From Pseudorhodobacter turbinis (GTDB lineage: Bacteria > Pseudomonadota > Alphaproteobacteria > Rhodobacterales > Rhodobacteraceae): a DNA stretch of 64,000 bases. Positions 8,472-53,620 of the stretch are shown piece by piece. Position numbers and translations under genes: made by a program. How positions within the stretch are numbered: the first letter of the stretch is position 1; the number at the start of each line of letters is the position of its first letter. The notes beneath the pieces are model-generated. The model saw nothing but the letters and a program-made list of their open reading frames with translations, ran no database searches and was not told the origin of the DNA. The DNA lies in NCBI RefSeq assembly GCF_005234135.1, contig NZ_CP039964.1, positions 186,001-250,000 on the forward strand, in the 5' to 3' direction.

Positions 8472-8511
8472 CGGATGTTTCGATATAAGACGGGATTGCA
8501 TATTCCGTAGC

Positions 8512-8547: not shown

Positions 8548-8609
8548 TGCCGTATCGAAGGCAAAAACACCTGAGGACAGACACTGTTTTTACAACAGCC
8601 CCCACCATA

Positions 8610-8642
8610 AGAAAACGCCCCGCCAGACAACTGGCGGGGCGT
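8610..8642 (-). terminator. Intrinsic terminator of acnA
   Basis: ACGCCCCGCCAG (8615-8626) and CTGGCGGGGCGT (8631-8642) form a perfect 12-base stem with an ACAA loop. On the minus strand it ends in GTTTTC. It lies 48 bases beyond the acnA stop, so it serves acnA. Confidence 0.8.
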
Positions 8643-8690
8643 AAGGCTTAGCCATAGGCTGGCCCGTGGTTTTCAAATGCCGTTAGGCGT

Positions 8691-11468: not shown

Positions 11469-11556
11469 GTCTAACCTCCTGGCTGGGGCGTGAATGTCGT
11501 GATCTTCCCTAGAGGTAATGCCGACAAACGGGTCGGAAAACAAGGGAGTCGTGTCG

Positions 11557-11574
11557 TTGTATGCAATTGTATGC
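11557..11574. promoter_or_regulatory. Tandem TTGTATGC direct repeat upstream of acnA
   Basis: TTGTATGC occurs at 11557-11564 and again at 11567-11574, ten bases apart centre to centre (one helical turn), about 90 bases upstream of the acnA start. The spacing suggests a tandem regulator site, but no known regulator is assigned and chance is possible. Confidence 0.3.
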
Positions 11575-11715
11575 CGAAAATCCAGCCCAAATATGACACA
11601 GATCAGGTCTAAGCGCACAACCTACACATTTGTAACGCCGCCTCTCAAAACCTTGATTGGCTCCTCGGGGGTTATGTGACTAGATATGGGGAGTACCTAT
11701 AGTGAGGCTTTGAGG

Positions 11716-12417
11716 ATGAGACACAGGTTCATACCCGCTTGCGCGGCATTTCTGGCATTTGCGGCGCCGGTCTTTGCGCAAAGTGAAGACGCGGTTGTGG
11801 TGGAGCTGTTTACGTCGCAAGGCTGCGTTTCCTGCCCTCCGGCAGATGCTATTTTGGGAAAGATTGATGCGACGGCAGGGGTGATCGCGCTGTCACTACA
11901 TGTGGATTACTGGGATTATCTAGGTTGGAAGGATAAGTTTGCCAGCCCCCAATTCACTGCCCGTCAAAAAGCTTATGCGCGCCATGCCCGTGAAAAGATG
12001 GTCTATACCCCGCAGGTCGTGGTGCAAGGGCAAGCCCGGCTGATCGGCAATCGCGGTCCCGAGGTGGAAGCTGCAGTGAATGCCCAGTTGAAAAAGGCCG
12101 GGCGCAACGGGCTGCAATTGGACCGTCAAGGTGATCGCGTGTTGATTACGGCTGCACCGGTTTTGGGCGCGACCGGACCAATACACGTACAACTGGTCCG
12201 GTTTTCCCCATCGGAGTCTGTCAAGATTGAACGCGGTGAGAATGCAGGCAAAACGATCACGTACCACAATGTGGTTAAATCCTGGCAGATTCTGACCGAT
12301 TGGAACGGCACCAGCCCTTTGTCTATTGAGGCGGCTGCACCGGGGGGCGCACCATTGGTGGTGATTTTACAAGCCACCGGCCCGGCCGAGATATTGAGCG
12401 CAGATGTTCTGCGCTAG
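11716..12417 (+). CDS. DUF1223 thioredoxin-fold exported protein
   Basis: A 233-residue protein of the DUF1223 family. A signal peptide covers about residues 1-22 (MRHRFIPACAAFLAFAAPVFA). The mature part starts with a thioredoxin-like strand and CVSC (Cys37/Cys40) in VELFTSQGCVSCPPAD, so a periplasmic thiol or redox role is plausible. The conserved SLHVDYWDYLGWKDKF stretch is typical of the family. The ATG at 11716 is preferred over 11686 because it directly begins the signal peptide. The gene converges on the acyltransferase, whose stop is 3 bases away. The biochemical function of the family is not established. Confidence 0.82.
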   Translation: MRHRFIPACAAFLAFAAPVFAQSEDAVVVELFTSQGCVSCPPADAILGKIDATAGVIALSLHVDYWDYLGWKDKFASPQFTARQKAYARHAREKMVYTPQVVVQGQARLIGNRGPEVEAAVNAQLKKAGRNGLQLDRQGDRVLITAAPVLGATGPIHVQLVRFSPSESVKIERGENAGKTITYHNVVKSWQILTDWNGTSPLSIEAAAPGGAPLVVILQATGPAEILSADVLR

Positions 12418-12420
12418 GTT

Positions 12421-13287
12421 TTATTTCCAGCGGCGGTGGATCCAGAACCATTGATCCATGTGCTGACGCACCAGCTTTTCCAGTGAATCGTTCAGGGCTT
12501 GTGTCATTTCGGTCGGCGTGCTGTGCGGGATCGGGGGTTCGATAATAATATCGAAATCGAGGCCACGGCGCACGGCATAGGTCGGCACCACCAGCGCATT
12601 ATACTTCAACGCCAGATCGGCCGCCGAAAGGGCTGTCATCGCGGGCTGTCCCATGAAGGAGAGCGGCTGCCCACTGCTGATTTTTTGATCCATCAGCAGG
12701 CCCAACATGCCGCCGCCCCGTAAAAACCGCACCATATCTGCCAATCCAGCACGGCCCCGCGGGAAAACCGGAGTGCCGATGCGCGAAATCGCCTTGACGT
12801 AATGGGCGTTGAAATCGGGGTCCCCCATCGGGCGGTAAAGCGCCCCGACATTATAGCCGCGCGCAATAAGCGCTGCACGGCTTGCGTCATAATTGCCGAA
12901 ATGGCCGGTCACGAGGATTACCGGACGACCAGCTGCATGGGCTTCGTCCAGGGCCGCCAGCCCCTCACCTTGCAGCGGTTCTGCGGTGGCGCGTGCGATA
13001 AATTCTTTGCCAGAGTAAATCTCGATCAAGGTGCGGCCCACATTGCGCGGCACCTCGCGCATCAGCCGCTTTACCTCTGCTTGCGGCAGGTCTGGCATCA
13101 CAAGCGCCAGATTGTCGCGCACACGTTTGTCATATCCAGCGATCGGGCCGATGATATAGGCCATGACCCAACCACACAGCGGCACGCGCCAACGGTAAGG
13201 CAGGGCTAAAAGCAGATTGATCAACCCGCGTATAAACAGGTTGCGCAACCGTTCTGCCCGGCTTTTTTTCACAGTGGTTTTGGTCAT
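12421..13287 (-). CDS. Lauroyl/myristoyl acyltransferase of lipid A synthesis (LpxL/HtrB family)
   Basis: A 288-residue membrane-bound acyltransferase that should add a secondary fatty acid to Kdo-lipid A. The catalytic HX4D motif is HFGNYD (His129-Asp134). RPMGDPDFNAHY, the DQKISSGQPLSFMGQPA segment (substrate pocket) and the end HMDQWFWIHRRWK are family features. A basic N-terminus precedes a hydrophobic stretch GLINLLLALPYRW (21-33) that anchors it in the inner membrane. The length is slightly under the E. coli enzymes (about 306), as is usual in Rhodobacterales. Which acyl chain it uses cannot be read from sequence. It is monocistronic and convergent with the DUF1223 gene. Confidence 0.9.
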   Translation of the reverse strand: MTKTTVKKSRAERLRNLFIRGLINLLLALPYRWRVPLCGWVMAYIIGPIAGYDKRVRDNLALVMPDLPQAEVKRLMREVPRNVGRTLIEIYSGKEFIARATAEPLQGEGLAALDEAHAAGRPVILVTGHFGNYDASRAALIARGYNVGALYRPMGDPDFNAHYVKAISRIGTPVFPRGRAGLADMVRFLRGGGMLGLLMDQKISSGQPLSFMGQPAMTALSAADLALKYNALVVPTYAVRRGLDFDIIIEPPIPHSTPTEMTQALNDSLEKLVRQHMDQWFWIHRRWK

Positions 13288-13442
13288 GGAGCCGTCCAGT
13301 TTATATGCCGATCCAAGCGGGATTTACGCAGCCTTACATAAGGCCCCGTCCCTACGATCACAAGCGCAGCAGATGGCACCACGCCCCGAAAGCGCGGCAA
13401 ATGCCTGTTTGTCGCAAAAGCAGGGGGATGGCTTTGTGCCGG

Positions 13443-14522
13443 CTACTCTTCCTCTTGAATAAAGGCCAGTTCGCCAGCGCTTTCCAACCCACGGATAGCA
13501 GCGATAACTGCGCCCTGTGCGGCTTCTCCATCTTTTTCGGTCACCTTGCCCCGTTCGTCCATCTCTTCACGAAGGGTTTGCGCCATGCGTTGTGACATAT
13601 TGTCCAGGATAAACTCTGCAGTGGGGGCCAGATCTTTTTTGGCGCTGGCATAGGTCAGAGCGGTGACCAGAACGGCCTGATCCAAAACGCGCGCGATTTT
13701 CGGAATGTCGCGGGTGTTGATACGGGCGGGGATATGGAAGAATGTAAAAATTGCCTTGCGCACCATCTTGGCAAATTCTTCATCATCTTGCTCGAGGCCA
13801 GCCAGAACATCGTCACGGACCAACTGTGGGGTGACGTTCAAAATGGCGCCAACGCGTTCGACCGCACCGGTCTCGAAGGCGCGCGGGGGTTGGTTTTCCA
13901 GCTGGGTGGCAAGAGAGAGGCCAATGCGTCGCACGGTTTCAGGGTCTACATTTACCGTCTGTGATACAGCATAGGCCACACGGCGCGCGCGCGCACCTTC
14001 CAGCCGTCCCAAAAGCTCTGCCGCTTTGGGAACAACGAGTTTGGACAGCATGACGGCTGCGACCTCGATGCTCTCTTCCTCGAGAACCGGAAGCAGGCGA
14101 TCAACCTCCATCGCCGAAATCCGGTCCCAAGGGTCCGCGCGCGAGGAGGCCCCCGCAAGGCGGCGCAACCTGTTGGCGGCAGTCGCGGAAATATGGCCAT
14201 CCATGATAGAAAGCGCCCCTTCGATCCCGCCGGGAAAGGCCAGGCCAACCTCTTCCAGTTCGGCCACGAATTCGGCCACAACCGCGTTCAAAGTGCCGCG
14301 GTCGACAAGCCGCATTTTGCCCATCTGTTCGGTCAGGGCGGCCTGAGTGTGTTCGGGCAAGGAGGACAATATGATGGGGGTATCTTGCGCCACCAACAGC
14401 CTAACGATAACCGCCGCCTTTTCACGGCTGGTCAGCGGCCGCCGTGCGGCCCGCCGTTCGCGGTTGGGCGCAAAAGCCTGTGTTGGCGTGATCTGCGCCA
14501 GTTCTGTTGACCCGTTTTCCAT
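13443..14522 (-). CDS. fliG: Flagellar motor switch protein FliG
   Basis: A 359-residue rotor protein of the flagellar switch that links FliF and the MotA stator contact. The N-terminal domain (REKAAVIVRLLVAQ near 32-46), the middle ARM-like domain (VAAVMLSKLVVPKAAELLGRL) and the C-terminal torque domain (MVRKAIFTFFHIPARINTRDIPKIARVLDQ, about 258-287) are all recognisable. A disordered, Gln/Pro/Arg-rich head of about 28 residues precedes them. No other flagellar structural gene is in the window, so this copy stands apart from the flagellar cluster; an orphan fliG beside purB is seen in related Rhodobacterales. Terminal EEE residues follow the last helix. Confidence 0.9.
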   Translation of the reverse strand: MENGSTELAQITPTQAFAPNRERRAARRPLTSREKAAVIVRLLVAQDTPIILSSLPEHTQAALTEQMGKMRLVDRGTLNAVVAEFVAELEEVGLAFPGGIEGALSIMDGHISATAANRLRRLAGASSRADPWDRISAMEVDRLLPVLEEESIEVAAVMLSKLVVPKAAELLGRLEGARARRVAYAVSQTVNVDPETVRRIGLSLATQLENQPPRAFETGAVERVGAILNVTPQLVRDDVLAGLEQDDEEFAKMVRKAIFTFFHIPARINTRDIPKIARVLDQAVLVTALTYASAKKDLAPTAEFILDNMSQRMAQTLREEMDERGKVTEKDGEAAQGAVIAAIRGLESAGELAFIQEEE

Positions 14523-14572
14523 TGTGCCCTCAATATACTAATCCATGAGGTCAGCTTGGCAGATCGAAGTTA

Positions 14573-14608
14573 ACACGGGCTTACACGCATCCAGTGCAAA
14601 GCCCGTGT
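14573..14608. terminator. Inverted repeat between fliG and purB
   Basis: ACACGGGCTT (14573-14582) and AAGCCCGTGT (14599-14608) form a 10-base stem with a 16-base loop. It lies between the purB stop and the fliG start, both on the minus strand, so it probably weakens read-through from purB into fliG. The U tract on the minus strand is poor (GTTAACTT). Confidence 0.45.
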
Positions 14609-14642
14609 CTTTCTTGCGTTTTCCGGCTTAAAGGATCAAGTT

Positions 14643-15944
14643 TTAGCCAAACACCCGGGCAAAGATCGTATCAACATGTTTGGTGTGATACCCAAGGTCG
14701 AATTTCTCTTCGATCTCGGCAGGGCTAAGGGCGGAAGTCACCTCAGTATCAGCCAGAAGTTCCGTTTTGAAATCAGCGCCTTGTTCCCAAACCTTCATGG
14801 CATTGCGCTGCACCAGGCGGTAGCTATCCTCACGCGATACACCTGCTTGCGTCAGGGCCAGCAGCACGCGCTGGCTCATCACAAGGCCGCGGAATTTATT
14901 CATGTTTGCCAGCATGTTATCGGGATAAATCACCAGCTTTTCAATCAGCCCCGCAAGACGGTGCAGCGCAAAGTCCAACGTGATCGTGGCGTCGGGGCCA
15001 ATTGCGCGCTCTACGCTGGAATGGCTGATGTCACGCTCATGCCAAAGCGCGACATTTTCCAGCGCCGGAATGACAGCCATCCGCACCAGCCGCGCCAGCC
15101 CGGTCAGGTTTTCCGACAGTACCGGATTGCGCTTGTGTGGCATCGCAGAGGAGCCTTTTTGACCGGGGGAGAAGAACTCTTCGGCCTCAAGAACTTCGGT
15201 CCGCTGCATGTGCCGAACCTCGATCGCGATGTTCTCGATCGACGACGCAATGACGCCAAGGGTTGCAAAGAACATTGCGTGGCGGTCGCGCGGGATAACC
15301 TGTGTGCTGATCGGCTCTGGCGTCAGGCCCATCATTTTGCAGACATGTTCCTCGACCGCGGGGTCGATATTGGCGAATGTGCCGACAGCGCCTGAAACGG
15401 CCCCCGTGGCGATTTCCGCACGGGCGAGGGCAAGGCGCGCCCGGCCACGGTCCATTTCGGCATAAAAGCGCGCGAAGGTCAGGCCCATGGTTGTCGGCTC
15501 GGCGTGAATGCCGTGGCTGCGCCCGATACGCACCGTGTCTTTATGCTCCAGCGCGCGGGATTTGAGCGCGGCCAGAACCCGATCCATCCCTGCCAAAAGC
15601 AGGTCAGTCGCACGCACCAGTTGCACATTCAGCGTTGTGTCCAGCACGTCAGATGAGGTCATGCCCTGATGCACAAAGCGCGCTTGATCGGAGCCGATGT
15701 GTTCGGCCAGATGGGTCAGGAAGGCGATGACGTCATGTTTGGTGACGGCTTCGATCTCGTCGATACGGGCCACATCAAATGTGACATCGCGGGCCTTCCA
15801 GACGGCCTCGGCATTCTCTTTCGGGATCACGCCAAGTTCTGCTTGGGCGTCGCAGGCGTGGGCTTCGATCTCATACCAGATTTTGAACTTGGTTTCCGGT
15901 GACCAGATGGCGACCATATCGGGGCGGGAATAACGCGGGATCAT
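14643..15944 (-). CDS. purB: Adenylosuccinate lyase
   Basis: A 433-residue fumarase/aspartase superfamily lyase that acts twice in purine synthesis, splitting SAICAR and adenylosuccinate to release fumarate. The superfamily signature GSSAMPHKRNP is present around residue 263, together with the HQGMTSSDVLDT catalytic-His region (near 93) and GRSHGIHAEPTTMGL (near 143). The start MIPRYSRPDMVAIWSPETKF is characteristic. The length fits the short-type enzyme (about 430). It lies 120 bases upstream of fliG on the same strand and catalyses the step after PurA. Confidence 0.96.
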   Translation of the reverse strand: MIPRYSRPDMVAIWSPETKFKIWYEIEAHACDAQAELGVIPKENAEAVWKARDVTFDVARIDEIEAVTKHDVIAFLTHLAEHIGSDQARFVHQGMTSSDVLDTTLNVQLVRATDLLLAGMDRVLAALKSRALEHKDTVRIGRSHGIHAEPTTMGLTFARFYAEMDRGRARLALARAEIATGAVSGAVGTFANIDPAVEEHVCKMMGLTPEPISTQVIPRDRHAMFFATLGVIASSIENIAIEVRHMQRTEVLEAEEFFSPGQKGSSAMPHKRNPVLSENLTGLARLVRMAVIPALENVALWHERDISHSSVERAIGPDATITLDFALHRLAGLIEKLVIYPDNMLANMNKFRGLVMSQRVLLALTQAGVSREDSYRLVQRNAMKVWEQGADFKTELLADTEVTSALSPAEIEEKFDLGYHTKHVDTIFARVFG

Positions 15945-42110: not shown

Positions 42111-42836
42111 ATGACAAAACGAAATATCGACCCGATCACGCTTTCTGTGGTGCGGGGCGTGCTGGAAACGACCCAGCGCGAAATGACGCTAACGCTTGAA
42201 CAAACCGCGCGCAGTTCGGTGTTCAATCTGGCGCATGACTATTCAACAGCGCTTTTTAATCACACCCCCGAGATGATCTTGCAGGGTCAAGACATCCCGA
42301 TCCATCTTGGCAGTTTGATCCCCGCGATGAAATCGGTTGCGAATTTCTTTGAGGGCGAGATCAACGAGGGTGATCTGATTTTGCACAATGACCCTGCTTA
42401 CGGCGGCAGCCATATCATTGATACCTGCATGTATATGCCGGTGTTTTATGAAGGGGAGCTGGTGTTCTGGACGGTTTGCAAAGGCCATCTGACCGATATC
42501 GGCGGCCCGGTTCCGGCAGGCTATAACCCCAATGCCACCGAGATTTACGCCGAGGGTTTGCGCATTCCCCCCGTCAAGCTGTGGGACAAGGGCAAACCAC
42601 GCCATGATGTGATGAACCTGCTTTTGACCAATATGCGGGCGCGCCGCGACCAAGAGGGCGATTTCAACGCTTTGATCGGTGCCTGTCAGGTGGGGGCGCG
42701 TAACCTCAAGGGGTTGATGGATAAATACGGCAAGGAGATGGTGCAAGATTGCATCGCCGAGCTTTTGGATATGGCCGAGACGCATATGCGCAAGCTGATT
42801 TCCGAAGTGCCCGACGGCACCTTTACCGGCACCGCG
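42111..42836 (+). pseudogene. Hydantoinase B/oxoprolinase subunit, N-terminal part fused to LivG tail
   Basis: Residues 1-242 are the start of a hydantoinase B (HyuB, N-methylhydantoinase B/5-oxoprolinase) subunit, an ATP-linked or ATP-free amidohydrolase subunit of hydantoin-type ring opening. Signatures include DPITLSVVRGVLETTQREM, ALFNHTPEMILQGQDIPIHLGS, GDLILHNDPAYGGSHIIDTCM and CKGHLTDIGG. Full-length HyuB is about 550-600 residues. Here it stops at VPDGTFTGTA and continues, without a stop, into the end of an ABC ATPase. The active product is therefore not a hydantoinase; the partner HyuA gene is absent. Confidence 0.85.
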
Positions 42837-43112
42837 ATGGGGGCGCCGAAATATCTGTTGCTCGATGAACCGGCGGCAGGGATGTCAGAGGTCGAAGCCG
42901 CCGATCTTGCCGATCTGATCCGCAAGATCGCGACGGAAATGGGCGTTGGCTGTTTGCTGATCGAACATAATGTCGGGCTTGTTCTGTCGGTCTGTGCCGA
43001 TGTCATCGTGCTGGATGGCGGGCAGGTGATCGCGCAGGGCGACAGGCAGGCCATCCTTGGTTCCACTGCGGTGCGCGAAGCTTATCTTGGCGTCAATGTG
43101 GAGGCGGCGTGA
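42837..43112 (+). pseudogene. LivG-type ABC ATPase, C-terminal fragment (same ORF as hyuB)
   Basis: From residue 243 of the fused 333-residue ORF the sequence is the end of a branched-chain amino-acid-type ABC ATPase: MGAPKYLLLDEPAAGMSEVE (Walker B and D loop), LLIEHNVGLVLSVCADVIVLDGGQVI (switch His) and the C-terminal EAYLG. The Walker A and signature (LSGGQ) parts are missing, so it cannot hydrolyse ATP alone. It ends TGATG, overlapping the livF start as in intact livG-livF pairs, which shows that this end of the operon is original. Confidence 0.85.
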
Positions 43113-43882: not shown

Positions 43883-44869
43883 ATGAAGTTTTGCAAATTC
43901 AGCAGCTGCGGACTGGCGGGCATATCTGTCGCGATGGTTCTCGGGGTGCAAGCGCATGCGCAAATCACCGTTAAGGAACTACAGACATTCTTCGCCCCCG
44001 CGCAGATTGTGTCCGGACCAGACATTGTTGACTGCACTCTTTCGGGCGGAAGCGAGACCACCTGTTTCTCGATTACGGTAATTGCAGAGCCGTCCAGCTA
44101 TACCCCCGGTCCGTGGTGTCCAACCAATATATCGGACGGCCCTGGCAAAAGCGGCATCTGGCTGGAAGGTGGGGAGGCGTATTCAGCGGACGGCGCGTTC
44201 ATGCAAAACATGTCGACCTTTTATGAGGATGACAAATGGCAGCTGTTTGACCAATCAACAGGCAAGATCAATGTCACTGACAGCTTAGAGGCCTGCCTTG
44301 CCGCAGCGCGCCCTGACGTGGATCCGGCCTATCAAAACCATTGTGTGCAATGCCTGATGGAATACATGCCCGACGGGGCCACGCAGACCTATGTGATCCC
44401 TGTTGAGCCTCAACCCCTTATGCGGGGCCGCTCCTTGAGCTTTGCGGGGGCTGGCATTGCGTCAAATGGCGTGTCGCTTGCTGCCGCCGCACCGACCGAT
44501 GCTATTTTGGGTGCCTATACCATTGCCCCCTTCGATACCTGTGGCGGGCATGTGAACGTGCATGCAGGTTATCATTATCATGCAGTCACAGATTGCCTGA
44601 CAGAGCTGTCATCCGCATCGCAACATGGTGTGCAAATCGGCATCGCCATGGACGGCTACAGGATTTTTGCGCACAACCTAACAGACGGATCATTGCCGAC
44701 CAAACTTGACCGTTGTAACGGCCACGAGGCGGAAGGTCTGAACTATCACTATCATGCTGGTGCAGTCGGATCGAATGCGATCCTGGGCTGCATGAGCGCG
44801 GAATACGGCTGTGCCTCAAATGATCCAACTGCGGTCTGCGACGCCTCAGCCCGACCTCCACGACCCTGA
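43883..44869 (+). CDS. YHYH-domain exported protein
   Basis: A 328-residue exported protein with a signal peptide (about 1-26, ending AHA). The YHYH family motif occurs in GGHVNVHAGYHYHAVTDCL (near 224-242) and again in CNGHEAEGLNYHYHAGAVGS (near 280-299), with paired cysteines (DTCGGH, DRCNGH, NHCVQC). The His/Cys pattern suggests metal binding, inferred from composition; the family has no established function. AAGGGACGTC precedes the ATG. It is followed 23 bases later by a lectin-like gene, probably cotranscribed. A related YHYH protein is encoded at 46.7-47.9 kb on the other strand, so the module holds two diverged paralogues. Confidence 0.85.
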   Translation: MKFCKFSSCGLAGISVAMVLGVQAHAQITVKELQTFFAPAQIVSGPDIVDCTLSGGSETTCFSITVIAEPSSYTPGPWCPTNISDGPGKSGIWLEGGEAYSADGAFMQNMSTFYEDDKWQLFDQSTGKINVTDSLEACLAAARPDVDPAYQNHCVQCLMEYMPDGATQTYVIPVEPQPLMRGRSLSFAGAGIASNGVSLAAAAPTDAILGAYTIAPFDTCGGHVNVHAGYHYHAVTDCLTELSSASQHGVQIGIAMDGYRIFAHNLTDGSLPTKLDRCNGHEAEGLNYHYHAGAVGSNAILGCMSAEYGCASNDPTAVCDASARPPRP

Positions 44870-44892
44870 ACCAACCTCAAAGGAATGATCAT

Positions 44893-45507
44893 ATGATCAC
44901 CAGAATAATTCTCGCCACCGCCTTGTCCCTGACAGGTGCCACTTTCGCTGCGGCACAAGACGCCGACATGAGCTTTTTCATCACCAGCGTGAACCCCGGC
45001 AACGGTGCCGATCTGGGCGGGCTGGAAGGCGCGGATGCCTATTGTGGCACGCTTGCCGAAGCGGCAGGTGTGAGCGGTAAAACATGGGCGGCCTATCTGT
45101 CATCGAGCGCCGAGAACGCGCGTGACCGGATTGGCACCGGCCCGTGGATGAACGCAAACGGTGTCGTCGTGGCGCAGAGCGTGGATGACCTGCACAGCGA
45201 TGCAAATAACCTGACCAAAGAGACCGCAGTCTCTGAGACAGGTGCCGTGATCAGCGGCCGTGGCGATACGCCAAACCGCCATGACATTCTGACCGGCTCC
45301 GATCTGATGGGCAATCTGGTTGGCAACTCCTGTGAAGACTGGTCCACCAGCGGTGAAGGCTCTGCCATGGTCGGGCACCACGACCGCACCGGCGGCGGCG
45401 ACAATCCAACGGCATGGAACTCGGCCCACGGCTCACGCGGATGTGGCATGGAAGCGTTGCAAGGCACCGGCGGCGACGGCCTGTTCTATTGCTTCGCAAC
45501 CAACTGA
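44893..45507 (+). CDS. Lectin-like exported protein
   Basis: A 204-residue secreted protein. A signal peptide spans about 1-21 (ending AAAQ). The mature part resembles bacterial proteins annotated as lectins with an endostatin/C-type-lectin-like fold: FFITSVNPGNGADLGGLEGA, TWAAYLSSS, NARDRIGTGPW, RGDTPNRHDILTGSD, NSCEDWSTSG and HGSRGCGMEAL, ending LFYCFATN. Four cysteines could form two disulfides. Sugar binding is not shown by sequence. It is cotranscribed with the YHYH gene (23-base gap) and ends at a hairpin shared with the convergent patatin gene. Confidence 0.75.
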   Translation: MITRIILATALSLTGATFAAAQDADMSFFITSVNPGNGADLGGLEGADAYCGTLAEAAGVSGKTWAAYLSSSAENARDRIGTGPWMNANGVVVAQSVDDLHSDANNLTKETAVSETGAVISGRGDTPNRHDILTGSDLMGNLVGNSCEDWSTSGEGSAMVGHHDRTGGGDNPTAWNSAHGSRGCGMEALQGTGGDGLFYCFATN

Positions 45508-45515
45508 TCTCAATA

Positions 45516-45543
45516 TCACGGGCAGGCTCAGGTCTGCCCGTGA
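45516..45543. terminator. Hairpin between lectin and patatin genes
   Basis: TCACGGGCAG (45516-45525) and CTGCCCGTGA (45534-45543) form a perfect 10-base stem with an 8-base loop between two convergent genes. U tracts are weak on both sides, but the position suits a shared terminator. Confidence 0.55.
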
Positions 45544-45547
45544 CCTC

Positions 45548-46672
45548 TCAACTATGCGACCAGAGAGTCTGGCTCTGCGCGCGGGCGAGTCCGTGCTGAT
45601 ACAGTGCATTCATATAGGTTGAGGAAAACCGATCTGACGGGTCATAGACAACCCCTGATGTCGGGCTGATAGATGCCACCGAAAACTTGAGCCCTTGCTC
45701 GCGTGCAAAAAGTTGCGTTGCGTTCACCTGAAGCGAGGCACTTGCCCGCCCCGTTGTGGTGAGCGCCTGTTGCGAGATGCTCAACGCTGACCGCGCAACG
45801 GTTGATGGCGCAGGATTGAGCGTGTTGTTGATCAGCACATAAATATGTCCGCCTGCCAGCTTCTGATCGGGGGTCGTGAAGGCAAAGCTCGGGACTGCCA
45901 AAAACTGCATGTGAACGCCGCCGTCGATATGGGTTTCCGTATAGGTTTTGCCGTCCGCGACATAGCTCAGGCTCACGGGCGGAAAGAGGCCCGGCAAGGC
46001 GGCGGAGGCGCGCATGATACCGCGGAACAGATCGTAGTGTCCTGCTTGCGCAATGGCACCCATATCCCAGACCGATGCCCGTGCGCTATCCAGCTCGGAG
46101 GTCACAACCAGAAGCCGGTTCCCAGCCGCATGCCGCGCGGCAACGGCTCGAAGAAAAGAAGGCGGTGTGTTTTCAGCAATCAACGCCGCAAGAGGGGCGG
46201 TGTCATAAAGGGCGTTGCTGAAGACTGCTTGAAAAGGCCGCATCCGCATGATGTCGTCTGCATCAGTTTGTGTAAATACACGGGTCAAGGCCTCGTCATG
46301 CTCCTGCCCCATAAACGCAAAAGGCGCGATCAGGGCACCTGTGGAAATGCCGGTGACCAGATCAAAATCAGGCCTGTCGCTGCGCTGTGACCAGCCGACA
46401 AGCGCGCCATCCTCGCCCCCGCCTGATAGGGCCAGAACATTGGGGCCCGCAGGTAAGGATGAGGATTGCGACGTATCCATATGTTTCAGCCAAACGTCAG
46501 GCCCATCGTCGGCAAACAAGCGAAACTGCGACAACGGATCAGTACCGGTTGGAACAGGACGCGCTAAAGGTGCTTGTGAGCCGCCCCCGCAAGCCGACAA
46601 AGCTGTCGCTGCGAAGCCCGTCAAAAATGCGCGACGCCCCATGGTGCCGGTGGCACGATAAATTCGGTTCAT
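45548..46672 (-). CDS. Patatin-like phospholipase lipoprotein (Tat type)
   Basis: A 374-residue lipoprotein with a twin-arginine start (MGRRAFLTGF at 11-20) and the lipobox LSAC (Cys28). The patatin domain has the oxyanion loop LALSGGGEDGA (80-90), the nucleophile GISTGAL (Ser110) and the catalytic Asp in HIDGG (near 250), a Ser/Asp dyad for lipid acyl hydrolysis. It is anchored in the cell envelope rather than cytoplasmic, so a role on membrane lipids or surface substrates is likely. It lies downstream of the second YHYH gene on the same strand, with a weak hairpin between. Confidence 0.87.
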   Translation of the reverse strand: MNRIYRATGTMGRRAFLTGFAATALSACGGGSQAPLARPVPTGTDPLSQFRLFADDGPDVWLKHMDTSQSSSLPAGPNVLALSGGGEDGALVGWSQRSDRPDFDLVTGISTGALIAPFAFMGQEHDEALTRVFTQTDADDIMRMRPFQAVFSNALYDTAPLAALIAENTPPSFLRAVAARHAAGNRLLVVTSELDSARASVWDMGAIAQAGHYDLFRGIMRASAALPGLFPPVSLSYVADGKTYTETHIDGGVHMQFLAVPSFAFTTPDQKLAGGHIYVLINNTLNPAPSTVARSALSISQQALTTTGRASASLQVNATQLFAREQGLKFSVASISPTSGVVYDPSDRFSSTYMNALYQHGLARAQSQTLWSHS

Positions 46673-46692
46673 TTCTTATTCCTGTGGAAAGA

Positions 46693-46714
46693 CCGAGCAA
46701 ACAGGCTTGCTCGG
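46693..46714 (-). terminator. Weak hairpin after the second YHYH gene
   Basis: CCGAGCAA (46693-46700) pairs with TTGCTCGG (46707-46714) around a 6-base loop, followed on the minus strand by TCTTTCC. It may attenuate transcription into the patatin gene. Confidence 0.45.
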
Positions 46715-46737
46715 CAAGTTGTTTACAGTCTGAGGGC

Positions 46738-47910
46738 TCAGCGGTTCGGCGGTGGCGGGAGGGCCGCACGCAATGCGTCTTCGGTGATACCCAACTTTTC
46801 GGCTGCAACCGCCATATCTGGCGGGCCGGCTTGTGGGTCACCCAACGCTTGCATCAGCGCATCAGGTGTCACACCAAGCGCCTCAGCCGCTACTTCAAAA
46901 CCGGGGGGCATTTGCCCCGATGCGCCGCCACCCGGCCGTGGTGGTTCATTACGCCCACCCAGACCTGCCCGTGTCGCACCCACGCCAGCCGTTGCTGTGG
47001 TTGAGAAGTTGTGCATGGCCTGCACACCAACCAGACAGGCGGGCAAGTTCGGAAAGTCATCGGTCGCGTGATAGTGGTAGGTCTCGCCCGCAGGTGTCGC
47101 CCCGATATGACCGTTGCATGTATCAAGGCCGGTCACAGCTGCGCCATCCGCTTCACGGCTGCCAAACATCGCAAACCCGTCGAAAGCATAGCCGAACAGG
47201 GCCGCACTATTCTGTTCCAAAGCGCAATCTGCATCGACGCCTTCTTTCTCATAGACCGTCTCAATGTCTGTTGACGTGGCGTGCCAATGATACCAGCCAC
47301 CGGGATCGATATGGCCACCGCAGGTATCAAGTGCTGGCATATGTCCGGTCGCTTGAACGCTGGGCGCATCGGAAAAGATCGGCACACCGTCAAGCGCCAC
47401 ACCAACTTTGGACACAGTGCCCAGCCTCGTGGGACTGTCCGCCATCATCGGGGTGGCAGGCAGCAGCATGGTAATCTCTACGCTTTCATCGGGCGAGACG
47501 TTGATGCAGGCGTGGTCGACTGCCGGTTGTTCCGTCGCTATGTCAACAATATGAATTGTCCCGTCGTCGTCAAAGAAGCGGTAGCCCAAATCATCAAGCA
47601 TCTTGAGGAACGCGCCGTCCACACGGTAGAGCTTGGCGTTCTCTCCAGTCCATTCCCAAACACCCCCTGCACCCTCCATAGTTGCGGGGCAAAACGGCCC
47701 GATCTCCAGACCTTCAGGAAGATAATTGACCGTGATCTTGTAGCAGGTCGATGCTGTGCCGTTCTCCAGCGTGCAATCCACTGTTACGGGCTGTTCAGCA
47801 AAAGCTGTATCGGAAAACTCTTCGATATCGGGATGAGCAAGTGCCATTTGCGCAAAGCCGAGCGCCCCGAGCATTACCACGCTCGGCCAGACGAGGGTTG
47901 AACGTTTCAT
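46738..47910 (-). CDS. YHYH-domain exported protein, larger paralogue
   Basis: A 390-residue exported protein with a signal peptide (about 1-25, ending ALA). It has YHYH-type motifs in GGHIDPGGWYHWHATSTD (near 199-216) and GETYHYHATDDF (near 273-284), plus DTCGGH and DTCNGH cysteine pairs like its paralogue at 43.9 kb. The C-terminal third is unlike the paralogue: a Gly/Pro-rich linker (GLGGRNEPPRPGGGASGQMPP) and two short repeats LGVTPDALMQALGDPQ / LGITEDALRAALPPP. These repeats may be a docking region. Function is unknown; the shared gene neighbourhood with a lectin, patatin and two-component system argues for one extracytoplasmic process. Confidence 0.83.
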   Translation of the reverse strand: MKRSTLVWPSVVMLGALGFAQMALAHPDIEEFSDTAFAEQPVTVDCTLENGTASTCYKITVNYLPEGLEIGPFCPATMEGAGGVWEWTGENAKLYRVDGAFLKMLDDLGYRFFDDDGTIHIVDIATEQPAVDHACINVSPDESVEITMLLPATPMMADSPTRLGTVSKVGVALDGVPIFSDAPSVQATGHMPALDTCGGHIDPGGWYHWHATSTDIETVYEKEGVDADCALEQNSAALFGYAFDGFAMFGSREADGAAVTGLDTCNGHIGATPAGETYHYHATDDFPNLPACLVGVQAMHNFSTTATAGVGATRAGLGGRNEPPRPGGGASGQMPPGFEVAAEALGVTPDALMQALGDPQAGPPDMAVAAEKLGITEDALRAALPPPPNR

Positions 47911-48143
47911 TAGAAGTATCCTTTTCGGAAGAAAATAAATGGAAATTCGGCGAGCTTTACTGTGTAGAGATGTGGTTGCTGTGGGCCTCGTGGAACACGA
48001 GTCGCCCGGCCACCCTGAAAGCTAAGGCCATAGAAAATGCGCCTCCAGGAGTTTTGGGTGCTCTATGTTTCATACATCACTCGGACCGTTGTCGCCCGAC
48101 AGACCCGCGACAGCTGGCCCGCCGCCTTCAAGCGCATTATCCC

Positions 48144-48353
48144 TCAACGCGCCCGAGAGCTTGGCCCGAGATTGTTACGCCGGACTACCCCGCCTGCATT
48201 GTTCTCAGCCCCATCTAAGGGAGTAGCCTGAGCATGCGCTTCGGTCGGGAACGGCGTCGCGTTAAGGGCAGAAGGGAATGTGTCTTTCCGGCCATCTGAA
48301 AGCGAGACAGCCGAGGCGAACAGAAATACGGGCAGCTTCAGGAGATAATCCAT
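48144..48353 (-). CDS. Small predicted exported protein, 69 residues
   Basis: A short ORF starting at the ATG at 48353, with GAAAGGAAAG as ribosome site. It begins MDYLLKLPVFLFASAVSLS, a possible signal peptide, then a polar part with TPFPTEAHAQATPLDGAENN and a basic end. No homologue is recognised and the coding evidence is modest. It follows the 131-residue exported protein by 49 bases on the same strand. Confidence 0.4.
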   Translation of the reverse strand: MDYLLKLPVFLFASAVSLSDGRKDTFPSALNATPFPTEAHAQATPLDGAENNAGGVVRRNNLGPSSRAR

Positions 48354-48402
48354 ATGCTTTCCTTTCGAGGTGTTTTCAACAAGTTGGATTTGGCGGCGCA
48401 GA

Positions 48403-48798
48403 TCAGCCTTTTTTCGGCGGATTTGCAGGAACACAGGCGAGAGGAACATTGGCTTCGGGCGACATACATTTGCCCTGAACTGCTTCACCGTTGCGACCCG
48501 AGAATTCACATGCTGACTGCGGGTTCACATTTGCACAGGCCTCAAGGGCTTCACGTGGCGGGCGCTTGCTTTGACCCGAGGGCGCAGATTGTGCAATCGT
48601 GAAGCCCTTATCCGTTACGTCAAGATTTTCAGCGTGGACCGAGGAAATGGCCAAAGCACTAATGACCACGACAGAAAGGATCAGCGATAGTTGATAAAAC
48701 TTTTTGCCTTCGGTTTTTGGGACGCTCGATCTGTAAATCGGGATTTTGCGATTTGCCGCGGATTTTGCACGGATCGCTTTGAATTTTTCGAGTAGCAT
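48403..48798 (-). CDS. Small exported cysteine-containing protein, 131 residues
   Basis: A protein with a basic head, a hydrophobic stretch (LSLILSVVVISALAISSVHA, about 38-57) and a polar mature part. The end has four cysteines (ACANVNPQSACEFSG, KCMSPEANVPLACVP), consistent with two disulfides in the periplasm or outside. AGGAGAACCAAA lies before the ATG. It is separated from the two-component genes upstream by about 150 bases on the same strand, so it could be a target of that system. It is not a recognised family. The long head before the hydrophobic segment is unusual for a cleaved signal, so a membrane anchor is possible. Confidence 0.6.
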   Translation of the reverse strand: MLLEKFKAIRAKSAANRKIPIYRSSVPKTEGKKFYQLSLILSVVVISALAISSVHAENLDVTDKGFTIAQSAPSGQSKRPPREALEACANVNPQSACEFSGRNGEAVQGKCMSPEANVPLACVPANPPKKG

Positions 48799-48952
48799 TT
48801 TGGTTCTCCTGTTTGGGCGTTGATTCGCCTCTTACAGGTTCGTTTTGCGCCTTCTTTGAGGAGCGAATTTGCAGCAATTATGCAGTGAAAATGCAGAGCG
48901 TAAAAAAACGCACGCTGTCCCATTTTTGGCTCAATTAGAATTGTGTTAAAGC

Positions 48953-49633
48953 CTATCCGTCGTAGGCATACCCCACACCATAAACCGAGCGAATGGGGTC
49001 CCATGCGCTAACCAGTGCAATTTTACGGCGCATGTTGCGGATATGGCTGTCGACTGTGCGGTCAAAAACCTCTGTGTCATCAGGAAAAGCCAGCGACAGA
49101 AGCTGATCCCGCGAGAAGACGCGTCCCGGCCGCGCAGCCAGCGATTGCAGTAACGTAAATTCCCGCCGCGTCAGATCAAGCGGGGTGCCATCAAGCGTGG
49201 CTTGCCAGCTATCCCCGTCAATCACGAGGCGGGTATCCGTGACGGGCGTTTGCGACTGCTCCCCCGTGGGCCGTCGTCGCAGGACCGCTCTGACCCGCGC
49301 GACCAACTCACGCGGCGAATAAGGTTTGCACATGTAGTCGTCGGCCCCCATCTCCAGCCCCAGCAAGCGGTCGATTTCTTCAACTTTGGCTGTGGTCATG
49401 ATGATCGGCACATCGGAGGTCTTTCGCACTTCGCGGCAGATGGTCAGGCCATCCACACCGGGCAGCATCAGATCAAGGATTATAAGGTCGTAGTTTCCGG
49501 CATGGGCCATCTCCACGGCACCTGTTCCCTCACCCAGCATCTCGATGCTCATGCCCTCGGCCAGCAGGTAGTCCCGCACAACTTCGGCAAGCGTGATTTC
49601 ATCCTCTACAATTAATATGCGTGGCGTCGTCAT
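48953..49633 (-). CDS. OmpR-family response regulator (BaeR-like)
   Basis: A 226-residue regulator. The receiver domain has acidic residues in VEDE (10-12) and the phosphoacceptor Asp54 in IILDLMLPG, with conserved TTAK and the switch Lys in YMCKPYSPREL. The C-terminal winged helix (TRREFTLLQSLAARPGRVFSRDQLL, DRTVDSHIRNMRRKI, SVYGVGYAYDG) is canonical. It overlaps the sensor kinase start by four bases (ATGA), so the kinase gene precedes it in one operon. It likely controls the exported-protein genes around it, though no shared operator was found. Confidence 0.93.
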   Translation of the reverse strand: MTTPRILIVEDEITLAEVVRDYLLAEGMSIEMLGEGTGAVEMAHAGNYDLIILDLMLPGVDGLTICREVRKTSDVPIIMTTAKVEEIDRLLGLEMGADDYMCKPYSPRELVARVRAVLRRRPTGEQSQTPVTDTRLVIDGDSWQATLDGTPLDLTRREFTLLQSLAARPGRVFSRDQLLSLAFPDDTEVFDRTVDSHIRNMRRKIALVSAWDPIRSVYGVGYAYDG

Positions 49634-51087
49634 GCAGTCCCTTTCGGCAGGTGTATGGCGATTTGAAGCCCGCCCATATCAGAGTGTCCGGCGGAAATCG
49701 TGCCGCCATGAGCCTCAACGATGGCCTTACAGACCGAAAGCCCCAATCCGGACCCTCCATAGGCGCGCGACCTTGATCCTTCCACACGGAAAAAGCGATC
49801 GAAAAACCTGTGCAAATCGCTCGCAGGGGCAGCGGGTGGCGTATCATCGACGGTGAGGAGCGCTCCGCCTTCATCCTCGTGCAAACTTACGCGCACGCGG
49901 CCCGGACCATCCGTATAACGGGCCGCGTTTTCAAGCAGATTGTCGATGACCTGACCGATCTGCCCGCGATCACAAGGCACCATCAGCTTTGACGGCAAGT
50001 CGAGGTCCAACTCGATCCTTTTGGCAGTCAACTTCGGTCGTGCCATCTCCGCAGCTTCGCGTGCCATCTGCGACAGATTTTCCTGAATAAGATACGTCGT
50101 CTGCTCTGCTTCACGCGCATAGGACAGGGTTTTTATATCCTGCACCAAACGCGAAAGCCGCATCAGCGCGGCATGCATTTCAGTCAGTGTCTTCTCATCC
50201 GGCTGGCGTATCCCGTCCTGCAGCGCTTCGATCTGCGCGCGCAGCACCGCGAGGGGGGTCTGCAACTCGTGACTTGTGTTTGAAATCCACTCCCGCTCGG
50301 TTTTAGCCGTCTGCTCCAGCGTCGCGGCCAAGGTGTTGTAGTGGCCAATCAGCTGCCCCAACTCGTCGGTGCGATCCTGTCTGATCCTCGCAGCATAATT
50401 CCCCGAAGCCATCGTTTTCGCACCGGTTTCCAGCCGCCTGATCGGCCCCAGCAGCTGACGCGCAATAATGTAGGCGGCAATAGCGGAAATCGCGATTGCG
50501 ATCAAAGCGGACAGCGCGAGAGAAAGATACTGGCCGCGCAAGAAGAAGGCATCGCTCTCGTTTCCCTGCGCAACCGGTGCGTTCAAACCGATGTAACCGA
50601 GAAGCCCTGTCCCAGTGCAATCATTCTGCGCACAAACAGGACGGCGTTCGTACCGCGCCGAGCGATTGATGTCGCCTAAAATCAGCATGCCACCTGATTC
50701 CAGAAGCACAAGCCGCTTTTCCAGCATCCCGTATTCACCCCCCGCGCCAAAGGGCGGCGGAGGCGTGGGCCTCGGTCCCGGAGTAGAACCAGGCGGTGGC
50801 GCAGGTCGGCCGCCCATCTCCGGACCCGGGCGCGGAACATGGGCGCGCACAAAATCATTCCAGTGTTGTGGGTCATTCGCAAATTCCGGCCACCCACTCG
50901 GATGTGCGTCAGCGAGCGCATCCACTAATTCATCGAACCGCGCCAGTTCCCCCTTGAGCAGATAGGTCGCAAATCCATCACGCATCCAGACCGCAACCGT
51001 CAGCGCCATTACTATGACGACCAGAACAGCGGTTGCTGCGATTGCAGTGAAGATTTTCGCGAACAACGACTTACGGATTTGTTTCAT
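49630..51087 (-). CDS. Sensor histidine kinase (BaeS-like) with proline-rich periplasmic loop
   Basis: A 485-residue membrane kinase. Membrane helices lie at about 14-34 and 187-212, enclosing a periplasmic sensor of about 150 residues. That sensor holds a Pro/Gly-rich stretch (84-113) and a CAQNDC cysteine pair (152/157), possible redox or metal sensing (inference). A HAMP segment follows, then the phospho-accepting His273 in NTSHELQTPLAVL, the N box QVIDNLLENAARYTDG and the G2 box YGGSGLGLSVC. The G1 motif reads DDTPP rather than DTGPG. The gene is first in the kinase-regulator operon. Confidence 0.92.
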   Translation of the reverse strand: MKQIRKSLFAKIFTAIAATAVLVVIVMALTVAVWMRDGFATYLLKGELARFDELVDALADAHPSGWPEFANDPQHWNDFVRAHVPRPGPEMGGRPAPPPGSTPGPRPTPPPPFGAGGEYGMLEKRLVLLESGGMLILGDINRSARYERRPVCAQNDCTGTGLLGYIGLNAPVAQGNESDAFFLRGQYLSLALSALIAIAISAIAAYIIARQLLGPIRRLETGAKTMASGNYAARIRQDRTDELGQLIGHYNTLAATLEQTAKTEREWISNTSHELQTPLAVLRAQIEALQDGIRQPDEKTLTEMHAALMRLSRLVQDIKTLSYAREAEQTTYLIQENLSQMAREAAEMARPKLTAKRIELDLDLPSKLMVPCDRGQIGQVIDNLLENAARYTDGPGRVRVSLHEDEGGALLTVDDTPPAAPASDLHRFFDRFFRVEGSRSRAYGGSGLGLSVCKAIVEAHGGTISAGHSDMGGLQIAIHLPKGTA

Positions 51088-51850
51088 TTCGCAGATATGG
51101 CACGGAATTGTGCAGATAGGGTGCAGAATTATACAAATTTGATCAGTTTGAGCCAGAGAGCGATTGCTACAGTAGCAAACTGTTATTCATCTCGTGGTAT
51201 CAATAGATATTTCTGGTCGATGAGACATTCGTCATGCGCAGGGCGATAGATGGCTCTGTAAAGCTTGAGTATCGGCCATTGATGCCTCAAAAATGCATCA
51301 CACAACCTCAACCATGCCAAGCGAACTTCTTATACATTGCTGCCATTCAGACAGATTCACAGCATAAGGTAGAATGGGCTCCAAGCGGACTTGCGGCAAT
51401 GCCGCGCGTGTTTTTTGCGCCAAATGCCCTGCCACCGGCCTGTACGATCACACCGGATAACTGCTATCTGCGCATAGCTGACCTTGATGGTTGGTGCAGG
51501 ATGGTTGGTTAGGCTTTCGCGGTCTTGAATGACCGCTTTCACCAATCTGCAGTAAGATGTGAGCAGGTGCAGCGAAGGTCCGCAACCTGATCATTGTCTT
51601 CCCCGATAACAATACCGACGGCGTTCGGAACGCACCTCCTCGAGACATTTGACGATGCTACGACAGCGACCGGCGATTGTTTTGCGGTTGGCGGCGTCCA
51701 TAGGCCAACACCAGAAGCAATCGGAGCAGGGCACGGGAAATTTCCAAGGTCAGTGGAACACTACTGGGCCGAGTATAGCCCTGAATTGTCAAATTCAGAC
51801 CGACACCCCAAAACGCTCGTTGGCTACGTTCATAATGCACAGAAAATGAT
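51088..51850. other. Low-coding region of 763 bases
   Basis: I see no supported gene here. The left end is AT-rich and likely holds the promoter of the two-component operon. The rest has short, broken frames on both strands with no recognisable family and probably represents mobile-element debris next to the Mu-type transposase fragment. Confidence 0.4.
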
Positions 51851-52680
51851 ATGTGCCTCCAAAGACACTGCTGGCGGAATTGCTCATCTCACAACAGGGC
51901 TTCAGCGACTTACGCGACAAATCGGGCATGGGCGGATGCGTCGGGCGCGCTCACCCCGTGGTCGATGGCTGTGAAGCCCGAACTAATGGTCACTGACAAC
52001 GGCCCGGCCTTTAAGTCAGAGGCGTTCACCAATTGCTGTCTCGATCTGCGTGTCGCAACATTACGAACACATGCAGGTGTTCCCGGCATGCGCGGGACGG
52101 GTGAACGTATTTTTGGCACATTGAGCACAGATTTAATGCCGCGACTGGTGGGGCGCACCTTCTCGAATTCTATTGAGCGAGGGGATTATAAGTCCGAGGA
52201 CAGAGCTTGTCTGGATGCAGAAGACGTTGCTTTCGTCTTGGTGCGTTGGGTTGTTGATATATATCACAACTCGCCGCACGAGGGTCTTGGTGGTCGCACC
52301 CCGCTGGAACAATGGGACGCTGATATTGAAGACGGGAACTACCCTCTGAGCGGGCTGCCAGATGTTGCCTCTAAGCGCCTTGCGTTCGGTAAGCGCCTCA
52401 AGTGTAAAGTCTCGCAGGAAGGCATCGTCGTAATGGGGGTCCAGTATCAGAGCCCGGAGCTCGGAATGTACTTTATGGGGATGGACACGAAGATCGTCGA
52501 AGTCCGCTGGGATCCTGAGAACCTTGGCGTAATCAGCGTCTATCTGGAGGGAATATGGCAGGTAGTGCCGTCCGTGTATGACCGTTTTGTCGGAATGCAT
52601 TTCCATGACTGGACGAAAGTGCGCCGGGCGCTTCGTGCAAAGTCAGCCTCCCGTACCCGCACCCAGCGCGCCGATAGCGC
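51851..52680 (+). pseudogene. Mu-type transposase, N-terminally truncated (fused to binding-protein fragment)
   Basis: The first 275 or so codons of a 589-codon ORF are the catalytic core and Mu C-terminal domain of an integrase-core transposase. ELMVTDNGPAFKSEAF carries the second catalytic Asp and GTGERIFGTLSTDLM the catalytic Glu. IYHNSPHEGLGGRTPLEQW and YQSPELGMYFMG (Mu-type beta barrel) follow. The N-terminal DNA-binding part and first Asp are missing, so it is inactive. At about 52680 the frame runs straight into an ABC binding protein. Confidence 0.78.
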
Positions 52681-53620
52681 CACCGCGGGGCTTGATGTGC
52701 TTGATCAAGGGGCTGAAATGATCGTGGTTTCTTGTGACTATGATTTTGGCGCACCGGCCGCGCTGGCGGCAGAGGGCGAAGGCATGATCAGCTTTTTCCT
52801 GTGTGCCGAGGATGTGAAGGCGGGGATTCAAGGCGTTGGCCCGAACAGTTTTTCGTCATCGGTGCTGGCGCCGGTTCAGGGGGCGACCATGGCCGAATGG
52901 GCCTATACCAAACGTGATGCCCGCCGCGCATTCGTGTTGGAGGATACCTATATCGAATATAACAAGGGCATTTGCACCGGTTTTGACTGGATGTTCCTGC
53001 AGCTTGAGGGTGCGCAAATCGTCGGCACCGATACGTTTAAAAACGATGATGCCTCCATCGCCAGCCAGATCACACGGATCAAATCCTTGGAGGAGGAACC
53101 CGATGTCATCATGCTGTGTTCGGTCATGCCGGGTGCCGCAGCCGCGGTGCGCCAGATCCGTGCCTCTGGCATCAACTCATTGATCTTGAATGGTTCTGCG
53201 GTAGATGGCTCTTACTGGCTGGATGCCATGCCAGGCCTTTCGGGGTTTGTCGTGCCGGTGCAGGGCTCGATCTATGGCGATGATCCGCGCCCCGAGGTAG
53301 AGGCGTTCAACGCGGCATATGAGTCCAAAACCGGCGCGCGGCCTGCCAGCCAATATGCCTATCCGGGTTATATTCTGATCGACCTTTGGGCCAAGGCGGT
53401 GGAGCGTGCGCAGACGGTTGACGGGGCCACAGTGACCGCCGAGCTGGAAAAGATGCGCGATGAGACGACCATCTTTGGTCCGCGCAGCTTTACCGCGTCC
53501 CTGCATCATCAAGATACGGCATTGATGCAGATCATCGAGATCACTGATGGCACGCCTGCACGGGTTGATGAATGGACCATCTCAAAGCCGGTTCCGCTTG
53601 ATGTCTTGATGGGGCGGTAA
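52681..53620 (+). pseudogene. Branched-chain-type ABC substrate-binding protein, N-terminal third missing
   Basis: From about residue 277 of the fused ORF the sequence is a Peripla_BP_6/LivJ-type binding protein: VLDQGAEMIVVSCDYDFGAPA, FFLCAEDVKAGIQGVGPNSF, FVLEDTYIEYNKGICTGF, PDVIMLCSVMPGAAAAVRQIRASG and SQYAYPGYILIDLWAKAVE. The signal peptide and about 100 N-terminal residues are replaced by transposase, so it cannot be exported. It belongs with the hyuB, livG and livF fragments at 42.1-43.3 kb. It lies next to the regulator and gabT genes, which are intact. Confidence 0.85.

Follow-up and report, generated by a model that had tools for sequence, protein, structure and literature searches.

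Introduction

CpxP acts on its kinase as a periplasmic accessory, and small periplasmic modulators of two-component systems (TCS) have recently emerged as a class. In DbfQRS of Vibrio cholerae, the small periplasmic protein DbfQ binds the sensor domain of its kinase and can set the kinase/phosphatase balance of that kinase, with positive autoregulation of dbfQRS being inferred by its authors (PMC12714742). As for the exported YHYH proteins, PMC7824862 predicts those of phages to be zinc-binding tail hydrolases, and no established function of the family was found in the literature searched. Here we analyze positions 43883-51087 of a window of 64,000 nucleotides (G000:C1:186001-250000) in the 4.25-Mb genome of Pseudorhodobacter turbinis, in which a BaeSR-like TCS lies beside two YHYH genes, a patatin-like lipoprotein, a lectin-like protein and two small exported proteins, the larger of which we name cysPP. 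No description of this gene set was found in the literature searched, most subscription papers being outside its coverage. We propose, with a probability of roughly 0.62, that this locus represents a mobile envelope-sensing regulon comprising the BaeSR-like pair, its CTGCA boxes, cysPP as an accessory and variable exported effectors.

Results

The genes named in the sequence-only reading of this DNA, eight in all and mostly encoding exported products, were all located. A scan of genome contigs with YHYH2 yielded 60 loci, and the order kinase (49630..51087), regulator (48953..49633), cysPP (48403..48798) and YHYH2 (46738..47910), all on the minus strand in the window, recurs in one order and on one strand in Sulfitobacter (loci L009, L010 and L011), Antarctobacter (L012), Paracoccus JM45 (L015) and Celeribacter (L023), the YHYH2 of L009 being 94% identical to that of the window. 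Conserved co-occurrence in other genomes, the test that the sequence-only reading had set for itself, is thus present for this core. The partners vary around it: patatin joins the core in the window and in L009-L012, the lectin-like gene joins in the window, L009 and L011 and also lies beside YHYH1 with no kinase nearby in Limimaricola (L066), and a di-haem oxidoreductase is inserted between cysPP and YHYH2 in L011 (PF06537 by Pfam) and L012 (by similarity). The annotated order on plasmid pSMS3-1 (L250), from an Antarctobacter of a diatom culture, is ATP-binding protein (the kinase), response regulator, hypothetical protein, di-haem protein, YHYH and patatin. Separately, the Antarctobacter YHYH2 gene at L012 8214-9356 carries one in-frame stop, with an intact copy on pSMS3-1.

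The neighbourhoods of 76 YHYH loci, counted by tblastn within 5 kb after removal of six duplicates, gave a wider view; since some contigs end sooner, these counts are lower bounds. A MarR-type gene was found in 17, a kinase in 14, cysPP in 10, a 213-residue exported protein in 8, a Met/His-rich exported protein in 5, patatin in 5, and the lectin-like and PEBP-like genes in 4 each. With patatin and the lectin-like gene being so rare, a single conserved module of seven or eight genes is rejected. The set in the window is instead a core, consisting of the BaeSR-like pair and cysPP, with interchangeable outputs that include YHYH, patatin lipoprotein, di-haem oxidoreductase and lectin-fold proteins. 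YHYH proteins have several regulators, of which the present kinase type is one; the MarR-type regulator looks like an alternative means of control. This MarR-type gene usually lies directly beside YHYH2 and is also found on two plasmids. Two or more YHYH genes stood side by side in at least 21 of 62 loci.

Viewed from the kinase, few genomes of the family have an orthologue at E <= 1e-90 (4 of 295), the loci besides the window being L145 (kinase, regulator, box, a degenerate cysPP and patatin), L146 (an Lcl_C protein, and a ferric-reductase-like gene divergent from the kinase by sequence look) and L147 (cysPP and an Lcl_C piece). At E <= 1e-60 a kinase was matched in 43 of 197 genomes of the gammaproteobacterial order of G288, from which we examined L149 and 20 of the other 48 matches, or 21 loci. 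cysPP was present at 8 of these 21, and the seven kinases closest to that of L149 (E <= 1e-95, itself included) all adjoin cysPP. L149 and L218 also encode a further small Cys protein, cysVRN, on the same strand as kinase, regulator and YHYH, with cysPP on the other. L020, on a contig assigned by binning to the Acidobacteriota, has the row YHYH, cysVRN, regulator, kinase as well; since identity to the window genes is 61-66% for its remaining YHYH genes, it may have been transferred or misbinned. As a side observation, Lcl_C proteins lie beside kinases of the window type at L146, L147, L219, L221 and L224 (the last two by sequence look only), which suggests that lectin-fold proteins are a recurring output of these kinases.

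The best NCBIfam match of the kinase (HATPase_c, HAMP and HisKA domains) is BaeS_SmeS, with 334.6 bits vs. an equivalog cut-off of 500, and that of its OmpR-family partner (Response_reg and Trans_reg_C) is PRK10710 BaeR, with 274.4 bits vs. 380, so neither protein qualifies as a BaeSR member by these equivalog cut-offs. The periplasmic loop of the sensor was described earlier as Pro-rich with a Cys pair, and both features are present (a C-x4-C pair, Cys152 and Cys157); among the kinases examined, the pair is kept in 8 of 9 alphaproteobacterial and 0 of 8 gammaproteobacterial sequences.

With the set on a plasmid in L250 and, in L009, amid conjugation genes (TrbI, a type II/IV secretion ATPase, TrbL/VirB6 and a conjugative coupling protein), we consider it to be mobile; a DNA search for plasmid copies of the whole stretch returned no match. 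This mobile context, together with the broken genes on both flanks and the rarity of patatin and the lectin-like gene as partners, would also fit a chance pile-up on a mobile island, with the kinase regulating genes elsewhere. We regard such a pile-up as very unlikely, given the same core order across genera, boxes at cysPP promoters in two bacterial classes and an exact triple box found once in the genome.

These boxes consist of CTGCA repeats at 11-bp steps, seen upstream of both cysPP and the kinase. Upstream of cysPP, the predicted regulator box (48859..48896, minus strand) comprises four CTGCA pentamers, three of them exact and spaced at 11-bp steps, the fourth imperfect; upstream of the kinase, an exact CTGCA-N6-CTGCA (51111..51126, minus strand) lies 39 bp before the start codon. 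We scored CTGCA-N6-CTGCA over the 220 bp upstream of each gene, reading in the direction of the gene, and compared every score with 400 dinucleotide shuffles. Fourteen of 17 cysPP promoters, in two classes, scored 9/10 or better (shuffle P <= 0.018 each), the window score being reached by 0 of 400 shuffles. Among kinase promoters, 7 of 16 scored 9/10 or more, and the best site fell at -38 to -42 in all nine alphaproteobacterial loci scored, with scores of 8/10 to 10/10. Because the window, L010 and L011 are closely related, the counts are not all independent, and the stronger evidence is that from L012, L015, L023 and the gammaproteobacterial loci. Ten YHYH genes in kinase loci were scored, and a box was present in two of them, at L149 and L218; in both it is exact and lies directly before YHYH, with exact boxes before cysPP as well. 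Away from a kinase, 1 of 14 YHYH genes carried a box (L238), and its genome, G712, has the kinase elsewhere (L223). None of three patatin and lectin-like promoters scored had a box. The plasmid copy L250 carries the exact triple (10/10) 97 bp before cysPP. Direct repeats at 11-bp steps upstream of target genes, the tandem-pentamer geometry of OmpR-family operators, are found at the predicted boxes. What is new here is this conserved predicted CTGCA operator, found at cysPP in two classes, at the kinase in the alphaproteobacterial loci and at YHYH in two gammaproteobacterial ones.

At the genome scale, the exact triple box occurs at one site in 4.25 Mb. Allowing up to 2 mismatches raises this to five sites, of which two overlap at the cysPP promoter, vs. 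three for a reversed control, and we do not claim a wider regulon from these numbers. The double box alone is too short for such use (11 in the genome vs. 4 for the reversed control; with one mismatch, in the window only, 10 vs. 6.9 expected). Ten of 295 family genomes, that of the window included, contain the exact triple, the others being counted without a gene-by-gene check; one of them, G349, has a YHYH gene too, with the triple sites either on a different contig or some 35 kb from it. A scan for promoters and terminators gave 9 promoter-like sites vs. 4.3 in shuffles and terminators at chance level, and was not used.

How far the boxes reach depends on the operon. Between cysPP and YHYH2 lie 23 bp in L023, 69 bp in L015 and 492 bp in the window, where this space contains the gene for a 69-residue exported-looking protein (48144..48353, minus strand), leaving gaps of 49 and 233 bp, with patatin following 65 bp after YHYH2. 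With this spacing, one transcript from the cysPP box is likely, and we predict that the genes from cysPP to patatin are co-transcribed in the window. Relatives of the 69-residue protein are found in L009 (81%) and L011 (47%, E=1.9e-9), in the latter too directly after cysPP, and its gene is split over two frames in L010; these relatives slightly strengthen the one-operon inference. The role of the TCS as control unit, as proposed from the sequence alone, thus finds support in conserved predicted boxes as regards cysPP and the kinase operon, and by virtue of the putative operon as regards YHYH2 and patatin, but not as regards YHYH1 or the lectin-like gene, which travel with the set, neither of them being preceded by a box in the window.

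Of the two small exported proteins predicted earlier, both of which have relatives, cysPP is the one tied to the kinase by genomic context, its gene lying 154 bp from the regulator gene. This exported or membrane-anchored protein of 131 residues has a core of the form RPPREALEAC...C...GKC...LAC. No Pfam family, PepSY included, was found for the window protein up to E 0.1, nor any for that of L149 up to 0.01. Counting the protein itself, it has 23 close matches and 108 by profile, the profile having been built from 14 proteins that it then finds, six of them from kinase loci, with L222 and L237 newly found; most are unnamed or 'hypothetical', and one bears the automatic label 'Hemolysin'. All four Cys residues are kept in 125 of 137 unique domain sequences, the first and third alone in 5, and three in 1, with gaps in 6. 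The joint loss of the second and fourth suggests that disulfides may form between C1 and C3 and between C2 and C4.

The cysPP profile also matches cysVRN (...GTCQ...LMCVRNQPI) at 11 loci, all beside YHYH, with E from 4e-6 to 0.016; this adjacency is partly a sampling effect, as most searched loci were fetched around YHYH. In 12 further YHYH loci from the order of G288 (12 of 19 matches were fetched), the YHYH-cysVRN pair was found in 7. One could imagine that cysPP and cysVRN belong to one undescribed superfamily of disulfide-knit periplasmic adaptors, with cysPP tuning the kinase and cysVRN partnering the YHYH enzyme. We deem this unlikely as things stand; if true, however, one small fold with no solved relative would join sensing to effector in a new periplasmic enzyme system.

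Both YHYH proteins of the window, claimed from the outset to be a diverged pair, passed the PF14240 cut-off of 25 bits, YHYH1 (43883..44869, plus strand) with 49 and YHYH2 with 66.8 bits. The full-length model of YHYH2 has a pLDDT of 86.8 and that of its core domain (residues 27-311; 46978..47832, minus strand) a pLDDT of 94.9 and a pTM of 0.91. The core contains two copies of D-x-C-[GN]-G-H...Y-H-x-H. All 58 aligned sequences, those of the two window genes included, share D195, H200, Y207, H208, H210, D244, D263, Y278 and Y280; H268 is kept in 47 of the 58, H279 in 55 and H281 in 56. Only two sequences lack C197 or C265, and both of them lack the pair; this joint loss suggests a disulfide that may join the two motif copies. 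The C-terminal extension of YHYH2 forms two helix pairs (residues 338-383; AAxxLGVxxxxLxxAL) that resemble helix-turn-helix domains in fold searches; such pairs are also present in another YHYH subtype (L007 11021-12022).

The conserved His triad and Asp of the family are retained throughout (H200, H208 and H210 with D195 and D244), and three invariant His plus Asp agree with the zinc-hydrolase prediction of PMC7824862. YHYH may be a hydrolase that depends on metal and attacks polymers of the envelope or the surface, with patatin and lectin-fold proteins assisting it in the remodelling of surface or lipids. The lectin-fold partners fit this notion, as does PEBP, fused to YHYH in L151 and adjoining it in L007, L017 and L023. 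Against it, Foldseek found nothing in the PDB at E <= 0.001 with either the full-length or the core model of YHYH2 (the highest VIA Z with the core being 2.5), no substrate is at hand, and the patatin of the window lacks residues next to its SGGG motif. We therefore hold the hydrolase reading as possible but tentative. In the L151 protein itself (8326-10497; 724 residues), PEBP (46-176) is followed by YHYH (from 273) and by the domain of the 213-residue protein (526-720).

The YHYH proteins might otherwise bind copper, iron or zinc in a metal/redox homeostasis module, with the kinase sensing metal and haem or cytochrome partners carrying out redox chemistry. Several neighbours point this way: the di-haem oxidoreductase in L011, L012 and L250; an animal-type haem peroxidase (PF03098) between YHYH genes in L020 (3976-5859), on the contig binned as Acidobacteriota; an exported protein rich in Met and His, encoded no more than 330 bp from YHYH in 5 of 76 loci and followed in L158 by CopC/CopD-like genes (by sequence look); a YHYH pair on a Paracoccus plasmid that adjoins cytochrome b and a heavy-metal ATPase; and the ferric-reductase-like gene of L146. 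On the other hand, of 91 loci searched to 8 kb, 1.39 Mb in total, only 3 had a heavy-metal ATPase, roughly the number that a few copies in each genome would yield, and 1 had CopC/CopD, the query's own locus; by these counts, taken without a formal background, there is no clear excess of metal genes, and no metal-site motif is shown in the sensor. We thus find the metal/redox module doubtful, and metal handling, as first suggested for this locus, stays a guess.

The patatin-like protein (45548..46672, minus strand) was described earlier as a lipoprotein with both a twin-arginine motif and a lipobox, and these particulars hold: it scores 59.2 bits vs. a cut-off of 27.7 for PF01734, and its N-terminus carries GRRAFL, of the twin-arginine translocation (Tat) type, and LSAC, of the lipobox type. 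GISTG (G-x-S-x-G) and IDGGV (D-G-[GA]) are kept. Directly after SGGGEDGA, however, the window protein lacks five residues that all 6 relatives retain, and this copy may be impaired as a result. No match to PDB sequences was found at E <= 0.01. The candidate assignment as a CBASS lipase was rejected (NCBIfam 19.1 bits vs. a cut-off of 200).

The lectin-like label given to the remaining exported protein (44893..45507, plus strand) is tentative. The protein matches PDB endostatin chains by sequence (E=2.1e-4), whereas its Pfam matches, to Endostatin PF06482 (E=0.0048, 17 bits of 29.4) and DUF1554 PF07588 (E=0.0085, 16.4 of 27.5), stay below cut-off and leave it weakly assignable. Endostatin and DUF1554 share the C-type-lectin fold, and the gene possibly encodes a protein of this C-type-lectin/endostatin-like fold.

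Both flanks lie outside the system and consist, as had been noted, of broken genes: on the left, the N-part of hydantoinase B fused to the C-part of LivG (42111..43112, plus strand), and on the right, a transposase fragment fused to a periplasmic-binding-protein fragment (51851..53620, plus strand). These open reading frames are long chimaeras of two unrelated broken genes each, which annotation pipelines may call as intact proteins. Elsewhere in the same genome, a second YHYH cluster (L007, G000:C1:655001-675000, 8553-14661) has a truncated YHYH2-like gene beside a transposase-like gene, along with a Met/His-rich protein, two more YHYH genes, MarR and a PEBP-like fragment.

Discussion

The gene neighbourhoods, the conserved boxes and the invariant YHYH residues, all read from sequence, point to a real, mobile and mosaic regulon with a conserved predicted operator and an undescribed small-protein partner. 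We surmise that the BaeSR-like pair answers to a cue from the periplasm, upon which the phosphorylated regulator would bind the tandem CTGCA-N6-CTGCA boxes, binding being presumably dependent on phosphorylation. The regulator would then raise its own operon as well as the operon running from cysPP through the 69-residue protein and YHYH2 to patatin, together with the di-haem oxidoreductase in some relatives. cysPP is most likely a periplasmic accessory of the kinase, which may provide feedback or carry a signal, as DbfQ or CpxP do on theirs; having no PepSY match, it would be at most DbfQ-like in action. The exported variable proteins, above all YHYH, putatively metal-site enzymes or binders, would serve as the effectors outside.

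Several observations weigh against the regulon as proposed. A similar kinase was not found within 5 kb in 62 of the 76 YHYH loci, some contigs ending sooner, and the close alphaproteobacterial kinases of L145, L146 and L147 have no YHYH beside them; in addition, cysPP was not found at L146 and is degenerate at L145, where patatin is present. The boxes are not uniform either: cysPP scored only 8/10 in 3 of 17 promoters (L147, L221 and L043), the alphaproteobacterial kinase sites of L012, L023 and L145 are at 8/10 and individually not beyond shuffles (P 0.11-0.14), and among gammaproteobacterial kinases a 9/10 box was found in 1 of 7 (L221). In the window, upstream scoring gave no box at YHYH1, YHYH2, patatin or the lectin-like gene, and control of YHYH2 and patatin by the regulator would thus proceed by presumed read-through from cysPP. 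Even so, we favor the regulon over a chance assembly, and its value lies in what it offers for the YHYH family: the regulator, the DNA box and the constant small partner provide a handle on when and with what YHYH proteins are made, and the same control unit with its predicted DNA switch in distant bacteria makes the function of the family testable.

Among known systems, the BaeSR envelope stress system provides the best-scoring named family for both TCS proteins. The window pair differs in falling below the equivalog cut-offs and in having no resistance-nodulation-division (RND) pump beside it among the window genes scanned; among ten kinase loci viewed, that of L226 adjoins an RND-pump-like gene (by sequence look). 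The YHYH family (PF14240) is found in bacteria, diatoms and phage tails, and its invariant His/Asp set fits the zinc site predicted in PMC7824862; the window members differ in lying beside, and probably under, a TCS, with YHYH2 bearing a C-terminal helical extension. Lcl_C (PF07603) and other exported proteins of the C-type-lectin fold offer a parallel insofar as Lcl_C genes adjoin related kinases in L146, L147 and L219, whereas the window protein weakly resembles endostatin/DUF1554 instead. DbfQRS of V. cholerae and BqsRS/CarRS of Pseudomonas aeruginosa resemble the locus in layout, in that the gene of a small exported protein likewise lies beside a TCS (PMC12714742, PMC12666569, PMC4682146). 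The BqsR operator, given as TTAAG-N6-TTAAG in PMC4682146, has the same pentamer-N6-pentamer geometry, the pentamer here being CTGCA. In contrast to DbfQ, a PepSY protein (PMC12714742), cysPP has a four-Cys core and no Pfam match, and the outputs here are YHYH, patatin and lectin-fold proteins, making cysPP a non-PepSY candidate for the recent class of small periplasmic two-component modulators.

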